Part shown: positions 32,963-34,847 of the stretch, piece by piece | Position numbering within the stretch: the stretch's first letter is position 1 | Layout of the letters: every line of letters starts with the position of its first letter | Source: an uncultured Bacilli bacterium | GTDB taxonomy: Bacteria > Bacillota_I > Bacilli_A > RF39 > UBA660 | NCBI GenBank assembly: GCA_944332535.1 | Contig: CALVKE010000012.1 | Coordinates: 1 to 34,847, forward strand | Length of the DNA stretch: 34,847 nt | Direction: 5' to 3' | Made by a program: the position numbers and the translations under genes | The notes under the pieces: generated by a model | The model's database searches: none | What the model saw: only the letters and a program-made list of their open reading frames with translations | Told to the model about the DNA's origin: nothing

Positions 32963-33009
32963 TATAAACACCTCCTAAATTAATATGTTGCATACTATCA
33001 CCTATTATC

Positions 33010-33038
33010 ATTATAAGTTTTAAGGTAAGAAAAAGCAA
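33010..33038 (-). promoter_or_regulatory. Promoter of the transglutaminase-like gene
   Basis: Minus-strand TTGCTT (33033-33038), 17 nt, TATAAT (33010-33015), about 48 nt before the start codon. Confidence 0.7.
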
Positions 33039-33193
33039 GAAAAACATATTGGAGCTTTAATACACTATGGTTATTTATGATAATGTTTGATACGCTAATT
33101 TTTGAAGATGTTCTAAGGTTAATATATGATGCAGCACATAAGACGACGAAAAAAAGAAGAATTAATTAAGAAAGCAGTAGATCATTGAAAAAA

Positions 33194-33213
33194 GAGGCCT
33201 TAAAAAGAGCCTC
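33194..33213 (-). terminator. Probable terminator for the 177-residue gene
   Basis: Stem GAGGC/GCCTC (33194-33198 with 33209-33213), loop 10 nt, followed on the minus strand by six U residues. It lies about 140 nt past the stop codon. Confidence 0.5.
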
Positions 33214-33350
33214 AATCAAGATAACGATCGCGTTTGTTTTGAGTGTTTTTAAATAACCAAGAAGAACAGAAATGTTATCTTTAAGCATTAAACTTTGATT
33301 CTATATCTACTTGTATTTTTATTATCAATACTTCTTTTTCCATAATTTTT

Positions 33351-33884
33351 TTACTTTTTAAAATTAACTTCAAAATATGTAAATATATTTTCACTAGGAA
33401 CAGTTAATTTAAAAAGAAATTTATCCTCATCTAATTTAAAAACATAAAGACTTGTTAATTGATGAAACATATCAGTATTTTTATTAGTAGGTAGATAACA
33501 GTCTAAAAATTGAGACTTATCATCATTAGGTCTTTTAACAAAGGCTTCACTTTCTAATATATATTTTGTAATATCTTCTATTTTATTATTATCAAAATTA
33601 TTTAAAGTCTCTAAATCTAACTTAAGCATAAAACGAAGAAAAGCATCTCTATTATTATCATCAACACCTGATATTTCCAAGGAAATTAAAGGACTAGACG
33701 TCTCTTTTCCTCTTTTTCCCTCAATAAACTCTACGTTTTCTATACTATCATAATAATAAGTGATTTTAGCATCATTAATATCTTTCCCATCCATTTCAAA
33801 AACATAATCAGGAAAATTTAAAACTTCTACCACTTCTTTTGTTTTACTATTGTTCCCAATTTTACCAACATAAGCTTTACTCAT
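33351..33884 (-). CDS. Hypothetical protein, 177 residues
   Basis: The ATG has AAAGGAAAG 6 nt upstream. The protein is acidic and predicted to be mostly beta-strand, with SPLISLEISGVDDNN in the middle and LTVPSENIFTYFEVNFK at the end. No TM, signal peptide or motif is recognised. It stands alone on the minus strand, AT-rich compared with the core genes, between two hypothetical regions and the insertion sequence; accessory origin is likely. Confidence 0.65.
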   Translation of the reverse strand: MSKAYVGKIGNNSKTKEVVEVLNFPDYVFEMDGKDINDAKITYYYDSIENVEFIEGKRGKETSSPLISLEISGVDDNNRDAFLRFMLKLDLETLNNFDNNKIEDITKYILESEAFVKRPNDDKSQFLDCYLPTNKNTDMFHQLTSLYVFKLDEDKFLFKLTVPSENIFTYFEVNFKK

Positions 33885-34698
33885 TAATATCTTTCCTTTC
33901 TTATTTATTACATTTTAATCATTATCAGCGCTAGTTAATTCTATGTTTTTAATATTATACCATTAGAATGAATATATTTAAAAACAATTTATCATTTTTT
34001 ATTATATCAGATAGCAGCATTTTTTAACATTCAAAAAATACTCTAAAATCAAAAATAATAATATGTTAGTAATATTTTCATAAATAAAAATGATTGAACT
34101 TTTTTAACTACATTTACTTTTCTCGCTGAGAAAATCTTTACTTTATATAAATGGAATTATATTCAAAGAAAAGGATTGCGCTTGCACGACTTTTTGTTTC
34201 CAAAAAATTTCCCCTTATTGTATTAGTTAACTACCACAGCAATTCTTGTATTTTTTTCTCTTTCGCACGTTCAAGAAAGCCAAGTATTTATGTTATTTAC
34301 ATAATTATTGGTATTTCAAGGCTTTGTGGCACTGGTAATAAAAATTTATAGTACTATCGGTACTATGTTTACATTATATTTTGAAAACTAAACGGAAACA
34401 TTGTGTGTATTCGCTCACAATTTATTCAACAACTCGATTTACAGCCTCATTATACACTATTGTTTTAGTTACTGCAAAATGATTACATAAGAAATATTAT
34501 TTAGAAAAGTAAATGCAAACCAATAATCATTTAAAGTCGTGATTTTCCCAACATTAGAATTTCTAATTAAAATAACTCGTGTATCAATGTCCACTTTATT
34601 CCACCATATAATATAAAAAAAGAAATTAACCTCAAAAAAGTGGTTGTATTATAAATAGTGTTGGTGAATATTTTCACTAATGATATTGTTATTAAAAA
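33885..34698. other. Long AT-rich intergenic region before the insertion sequence
   Basis: About 800 bp with no ORF that has a ribosome binding site. A 7-bp hairpin ATAGTAC/GTACTAT (34348-34354 with 34360-34366) lies in the middle. The left end of the ISL3-type element should lie somewhere in about 34560-34690, but without its right end I cannot place it. Confidence 0.5.
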
Positions 34699-34759
34699 AG
34701 ACATAAGTTTGATACAATGTAATTGACAAAAAAACACTGAAAGGAACAAACTTATGTCT
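34699..34759 (+). promoter_or_regulatory. Transposase promoter enclosed by a 13-bp inverted repeat
   Basis: AGACATAAGTTTG (34699-34711) and its exact complement CAAACTTATGTCT (34747-34759) flank a 35-nt loop with the ribosome binding site AAAGGA. The extended -10 TGATACAAT (34710-34718) straddles the left arm. The right arm includes the start codon at 34754. Confidence 0.7.
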
Positions 34760-34847
34760 ATAAATAATTATATCTTAAATCTACTAAATATCAAGGATAA
34801 AAATATTCATATTATTACAGAATGTAAAGAAAAAATGATAAAAGGGA
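34754..34847 (+). CDS. ISL3-type transposase, N-terminus (cut by window edge)
   Basis: The visible 31 residues begin MSINNYILNLLNIKDKNIHI and continue to KEKMIKG. This is the typical start of ISL3-family DDE transposases, which precedes their zinc-binding region. The ATG has AAAGGA 8 nt upstream. It marks the left part of an insertion sequence that continues beyond the window. The family call rests on this short stretch only. Confidence 0.7.
   Translation, partial: MSINNYILNLLNIKDKNIHIITECKEKMIKG

Follow-up and report, generated by a model that had tools for sequence, protein, structure and literature searches.

The 13-bp inverted repeat that brackets the transposase promoter at the end of this stretch of bacterial DNA probably, on the evidence of sequence comparison, controls an insertion sequence of the ISL3 family at the RNA level, acting on both strands. 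On the plus strand, the repeat would fold only in RNA that arrives from upstream of the internal promoter, hiding the start codon. On the minus strand, the same repeat would supply the stem for a ~70-nt antisense RNA, which would begin at the base of that stem, a short way into the transposase gene, and end in a U-tract past the left arm. Over its first ~35 bases this RNA is complementary to the start of the mRNA, with the Shine-Dalgarno sequence and ATG included, and this leads to the prediction that it blocks translation and can act in trans between copies of the element. A terminator at the left tip of the element would provide an extra guard.

The left end of an ISL3 element

The window, by which we mean the whole stretch of DNA analysed (34,847 nucleotides), is an entire contig (C12) of a draft genome of 96 contigs and 1.12 Mb. 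The end of the contig cuts the transposase gene after 94 bases. The features at this end are as follows.

34634–34641, no strand assigned: 8-bp left flank AAAAAAGT, expected to be a target-site duplication, with its right partner not assembled
34642–34667, plus strand: ISL3 left terminal inverted repeat GGTTGTATTATAAATAGTGTTGGTGA, matched to both ends of complete relatives
34660–34681, plus strand: left-tip hairpin seen on folding, an intrinsic terminator in relatives, with a weak T-tract in the window copy (TATTGTTAT)
34690–34760, minus strand: predicted RNA-OUT-like antisense RNA of ~71 nt (stem, loop, and U-tract), fold −19.5 kcal/mol, z −5.4
34694–34698, minus strand: A-tract on the plus strand, which is the U-tract of the putative antisense terminator; A fraction 0.70–0.88 by the left arm in 66 loci
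34699–34711, no strand assigned: left arm of the repeat, AGACATAAGTTTG, from sequence and covariation
34710–34718, plus strand: putative extended −10 promoter TGATACAAT of the transposase gene
34725, plus strand: predicted start of the transposase mRNA, near the hairpin apex and 7 nt past the −10
34740–34745, plus strand: Shine-Dalgarno sequence AAAGGA
34747–34759, no strand assigned: right arm of the repeat, CAAACTTATGTCT, which holds the ATG (34754–34756)
34754–34847, plus strand: first 31 codons of the ISL3 transposase gene; N-terminus 90% identical in genome G219
34767–34794, minus strand: predicted antisense promoter, TTGATA (34794–34789), 16 nt, TATAAT (34772–34767), with 11 of 12 consensus bases

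The element begins at 34642, 112 nt upstream of the ATG. Its left terminal repeat was also matched to two right ends of the same element elsewhere in this genome, one at the start of contig C46 and one at the start of C77; their flanks differ, so that the source genome holds at least three copies. Complete relatives span ~1,450–1,500 bp, their two terminal repeats resemble each other, and most of them are flanked by 8-bp target duplications that match at 8 of 8 positions, whereas for the window copy the left end only is assembled. The 31 amino acids encoded in the window are 81–90% identical to the N-termini of full-length relatives, which are ISL3 transposases according to PF01610 (2.6e-43) and NF033550 (3.1e-76). 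Searched alone, the 31-residue fragment gave no Pfam match, and the end of the window gave no blastn match to plasmids; one partial transposase was found among viral contigs.

Copies of ISL3 elements in this family of genomes are often broken, inverted, or fragmentary (L123 and other fragments in genomes G078, G052, and G270), which suggests frequent decay after insertion. The left and right terminal repeats (34642–34667, and positions ~230–252 of right ends L151/L152) are near-identical; they differ in that the left repeat carries TATTAT/TATAAT where the right repeat, read outward, carries TTGACA. By sequence, a circle that joined the ends with ~5 bp between them would therefore have a promoter at the junction. 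A transcript from it would meet both the terminator and the start-codon hairpin, which fits poorly with any role in boosting transposase.

An inverted repeat around the transposase promoter

The original prediction placed a perfect 13-bp repeat here, with an extended −10 promoter at its left arm and the ATG in its right arm, and its coordinates were confirmed. The arms are 100% complementary over 13 bp and are spaced 35 nt apart. The left arm ends with the TG of the extended −10 (34710–34711), which is followed by TACAAT at 34713–34718, and the pattern TGnTAnAAT is retained in distant copies (TATGTTAAAAT, TATGATACAAT). Across 64 loci the predicted mRNA start lies close to the apex of the hairpin, with a median offset of −2.5 nt (MAD 2). 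The window contains no other perfect inverted repeat with arms of 13 bp or more and a spacer not exceeding 60 nt, where 0.07 such repeats are expected, and such a pair of arms at a given start codon arose in 1 of 20,000 resampled sequences. The pairing energy was better than in 300 of 300 dinucleotide shuffles (z −5.6).

A second short helix, 34715–34720 with 34734–34739 (CAATGT/ACATTG in relatives), lengthens the stem. The −10 sequence forms part of this second helix, which has one mismatch in the window copy.

Conservation and covariation of the arms

The repeat should be kept in other copies of the element, with changes in one arm compensated in the other, if it is selected for pairing; this check was set out in the original prediction and it came out in its favour, both among 27 close copies and across 66 divergent left ends. 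When 386 genomes belonging to the same family were searched, 26 places were found, and the repeat stands at the same position in nearly all of them. The arms AGACATAAG/CTTATGTCT are replaced by AGACATGGA/TCCATGTCT, by AGACATAGAT/ATCTATGTCT, or by GACATGTAATC/GATTACATGTC, and in two copies codon 2 has changed from Ser to Tyr with the left arm altered to match (GTACAT/ATGTAC). The alignment of close copies contains two-sided changes in 25 cells, at 5 pairs, compared with 6.6 ± 2.0 in shuffles, and none of 500 shuffles reached 25. Sliding the partner by 1–3 columns in this alignment lowers pairing from 92.8% to 22–44%.

The divergent set consisted of 66 non-redundant left ends of ISL3 elements from Bacillota. 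They come from Erysipelothrix, Holdemania, Peptostreptococcus, Granulicatella, Jeotgalibaca, Lactobacillaceae, and a Desulfitobacterium metagenome-assembled genome, with enterococcal and staphylococcal plasmids also sampled, and they include the named elements ISEfa5, ISEfa11, IS1165, and IS1251. Several copies of the element were seen in Holdemania sp. Marseille-P2844 and in Erysipelothrix inopinata. Their arms are unrelated in sequence and still pair across the promoter, covering the Shine-Dalgarno sequence or the ATG. Mean arm pairing was −18.7 kcal/mol for cognate arms and −10.5 kcal/mol for swapped ones; in a permutation test the cognate sum was −898 compared with −512 ± 22, and 57 of the 66 left ends stood at 3 of 300 shuffles or better. 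Related copies inflate counts of this kind; duplicates were removed, and swaps, shuffles, and synonymous controls were used, with the per-locus tests otherwise ignoring shared ancestry.

The hairpin is also present in four ISL3 elements of halophiles, at a TTG start. It is absent from four distant ISL3 elements, in B. badius, Gloeothece, ISKpn25, and P. putida (z −0.8 to 0.7), which form one group in a transposase tree that has long branches. The main clade is represented in this tree by 41 sampled members, every one of which falls within the set tested for the hairpin. A few members have no clear hairpin, either by score (L027 and L024) or through a deletion that runs through the arm and the −10 (L006/L045), and some of these are degraded copies.

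The start codon on read-through RNA

Folding of the window copy buries the ATG in a stem (about −14 kcal/mol; z −3.8) in read-through RNA, while RNA that begins near 34725 is almost structureless. In folding models of the 66 left ends, the mean probability that the ATG is unpaired was 0.09 in read-through RNA and 0.45 in internal RNA (Wilcoxon p 2e-10). The start region is thus predicted by folding to be paired on transcripts from outside the element and freer on internal ones, and the idea that read-through mRNA locks the start codon, a trait of the kind known for IS10, IS50, and IS200, is plausible on these models. This idea, from the original prediction, stood with regard to anatomy, compensation, and folding; the same prediction overlooked the minus strand and so missed the candidate antisense gene, and the lock is half of the story.

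Outside transcription would first meet the hairpin at the left tip. Terminator-like hairpins of −5 kcal/mol or stronger lie within the left terminal repeat in 59 of 70 loci scanned, a set that takes in the four distant ISL3 elements. Their base pairs include 71 G-U and 5 A-C combinations, indicating constraint on plus-strand RNA, and the terminator is a third layer of control. In the window copy the T-tract seen in relatives is weak (34660–34690), and with its loss the second hairpin may matter more here. The original prediction also held that protection of this kind was undescribed for ISL3, which is only partly so: in 2010, Naville and Gautheret described 5′ terminators ahead of ISL3 transposase genes in Firmicutes as mobile attenuators (PMC2965389), where the terminators are in common with those here and neither the start-codon hairpin nor the antisense RNA is described. 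Our literature search found no paper on a start-codon lock in ISL3.

A predicted antisense RNA on the minus strand

Three independent features, namely a U-tract, a minus-strand promoter, and pairing that is not biased toward either strand, point to a putative antisense RNA gene. The run of A residues beside the left arm occurs in almost every member and moves with that arm and not with the −10. We also considered whether this tract might serve the plus-strand promoter as its −35 or UP element, and rejected that assignment because the tract follows the stem.

The predicted minus-strand promoter is the best of 24 sites in 33000–34847. Scored over 180 start positions in 61 members, the maximum falls exactly at the stem base, at 4.16 compared with −4.58 ± 2.21. 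In divergent members it exceeds randomization of synonymous codons (z 5.5, 0 of 400), whereas control positions give z of −1.4 to 0.5. Among close relatives this synonymous signal is weak (z 1.6–2.5), because the conserved Asn-Tyr-Ile codons already yield a −10-like sequence. An opposed promoter inside the transposase start and a stem-loop RNA with a U-tract are thus both found, at the level of sequence. The predicted antisense RNA of the window (34760 to ~34690) overlaps the predicted mRNA by ~36 nt, and the median overlap between predicted starts across 64 members is 35.5 nt (IQR 33–37). We infer that the window copy makes this RNA, that both transcripts start where predicted, and that either form of the repeat represses translation. 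No small RNA in Rfam matched window positions 34400–34847.

The types of mismatch tolerated in the repeat allow the two strands to be compared. A hairpin that acted in plus-strand RNA alone should resemble the adjacent terminator, with G-U favoured over A-C. The inverted repeat has 7 G-U and 8 A-C combinations (Fisher p 7e-5 against the terminator), an argument that rests on these 15 wobble or A-C positions, and its lack of bias indicates that it does not serve plus-strand RNA alone. The G- and T-rich terminal repeat inflates the contrast somewhat, by too little to explain it.

In ISL3 elements other than the window copy, no part of the left end apart from the terminal repeat is better conserved than a box (AAGTCACCACAA or GTTACnACA) just past the −10. 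The position of this box corresponds to the apical loop of the predicted antisense RNA and to the 5′ end of the mRNA.

Alternative explanations

The repeat might serve the minus strand only, as stem and terminator of the antisense RNA, with the read-through hairpin a passive mirror image that has little effect of its own. All of the antisense-specific features are conserved, and the RNA of IS1181 is known experimentally. We think this account rather unlikely. Selection on the minus strand alone should prefer A-C over G-U as read on the plus strand, and the counts of 8 and 7 show no such preference; moreover, almost every member has its plus-strand promoter between the two arms, and an arm covers the Shine-Dalgarno sequence or ATG even where the sequences wholly differ. 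The converse, a read-through lock with no functional antisense RNA as originally proposed, agrees with the anatomy, the covariation, and the folding. It appears improbable, since the tolerance of G-U that it predicts on the plus strand is not seen and it leaves the stem-anchored A-tract, the minus-strand promoter, and the small RNAs of IS1181 unexplained.

Complementarity without strand bias is also what two half-sites for binding of transposase or a repressor to DNA would show. Such sites were considered and rejected on compensation and spacing: the arms change freely with compensation among close transposases, which fits pairing rather than a fixed protein site, the half-sites would be 35 nt apart, and the arms are unlike the terminal repeats. 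We give this explanation very little credence. Complementarity with no function, produced by chance or by codons in A+T-rich sequence next to a conserved protein start, is extremely improbable, given its rarity at a given start codon (1 in 20,000) and its recurrence with different sequence in most divergent left ends, and it is contradicted by covariation. The reading we prefer remains control on both strands, for which the repeat, its covariation, the unbiased pairing, the anchored U-tract, the minus-strand promoter, and the match of IS1181 to known small RNAs can each be seen in the sequences.

Comparison with known systems

The arrangement predicted here resembles the RNA-IN/RNA-OUT system of the E. 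coli element IS10/Tn10. RNA-OUT measures 69 nt, of which 35 nt are complementary to the mRNA, and it is itself destabilized by mutations in the promoter of that mRNA (PMC5006887); read-through RNA of IS10 folds over the start, according to the account of Davis et al. 1985 cited in PMC2965389. In ISL3, likewise, we predict an opposite-strand antisense RNA of ~70 nt, an overlap of ~35 nt at the translation start, an mRNA promoter within the antisense gene, and a start region that is folded on read-through RNA. IS10 belongs to the IS4 family, however, while the transposase here is of the ISL3 type with no sequence relation seen, and ISL3 has an intrinsic terminator in its left terminal repeat; the control is IS10-like and the element is not a member of IS10. 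The two systems of control look convergent. From the fit to IS10 and the small RNAs of IS1181, the read-through lock is best regarded as what a module resembling that of IS10 does on its plus strand.

In S. aureus, the ISL3 element IS1181 (L154) matches the Rfam family sau-5949 (RF02396) on its minus strand with 81.8 bits against a cut-off of 56; an S. simulans element (L156) also matches (62.9), and Ref64 (RF02847) aligns across the whole IS1181 hairpin. RNA sequencing has detected antisense RNAs (RsaOW/Teg17) at the 5′ end of tnp in IS1181, and these have been likened to RNA-OUT (PMC2873960, PMC3053349, PMC3861533), a likeness that in the cited reviews is one of predicted structure. Terminator, A-tract, arms, −10, Shine-Dalgarno sequence, and minus-strand RNA are laid out alike in IS1181 and the window, both of the ISL3 family, but their arm and loop sequences differ and the window falls below the Rfam model. 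The published work on IS1181 concerns the RNA alone, and neither a read-through lock nor the wider family. Ref64, Spy392987 (RF02592), and S. pneumoniae srn266/M10 are likewise small antisense RNAs at transposase starts, and pneumococcal small RNAs antisense to ISL3- or IS30-type transposases have been reported (PMC12323649). Matches of Spy392987 and srn266 to the loci analysed were below Rfam cut-offs, and those of srn266 were too weak to use.

The combination of a terminator and a start-site hairpin has a further parallel. IS200 is reported to have a terminator near its left end and a hairpin at the ribosome-binding site (Beuzon et al. 1999, cited in PMC2965389). The ISL3 elements here similarly join a left-end terminator to a hairpin at the translation start. 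IS200 encodes an HUH transposase, however, and its second hairpin is also present on the internal transcript, unlike that predicted for ISL3.

Wider occurrence and significance

A search of Bacilli genomes with Ref64 and Spy392987 found the same layout before transposase genes of the ISL3 (L157), IS30 (L161), IS481-like (L164), and IS256-like (L166) types. A pattern that combined the −10 and the conserved box added a further multicopy IS30 element, L199, whose arms pair with −26.5 kcal/mol (z −7.7); most single matches to this pattern lay in coding sequence and were chance-like, and only multicopy matches beside transposases were used. The GTTACnACA box, in the antisense loop, is common to the modules before IS30, IS481-like, and IS256-like transposases (L161, L164, L166, and L199). 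A tentative proposal, which we put at somewhat short of an even chance, is that the repeat is selected on both strands and that Bacillota insertion sequences share the whole cassette as a control module that is old and portable. It would be general in the sampled main clade of ISL3, would carry the GTTACnACA box before IS30, IS481-like, and IS256-like transposases, and would be filed under at least two to three unlinked Rfam names. The module may have been exchanged between IS families, or it may have been invented repeatedly.

ISL3 elements are common in Firmicutes, and the silencing of their transposases has been little studied. The IS10-like control predicted from these sequences is new for this lineage and is unified here across ISL3. 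The count of G-U against A-C offers a simple way to separate RNA hairpins that act on one strand from those that act on two. An antisense RNA combined with a read-through lock gives a directly testable model and would explain several orphan small RNAs from separate screens. It also makes it possible to ask whether RNA control is shared between different IS families or has been repeatedly reinvented by them.
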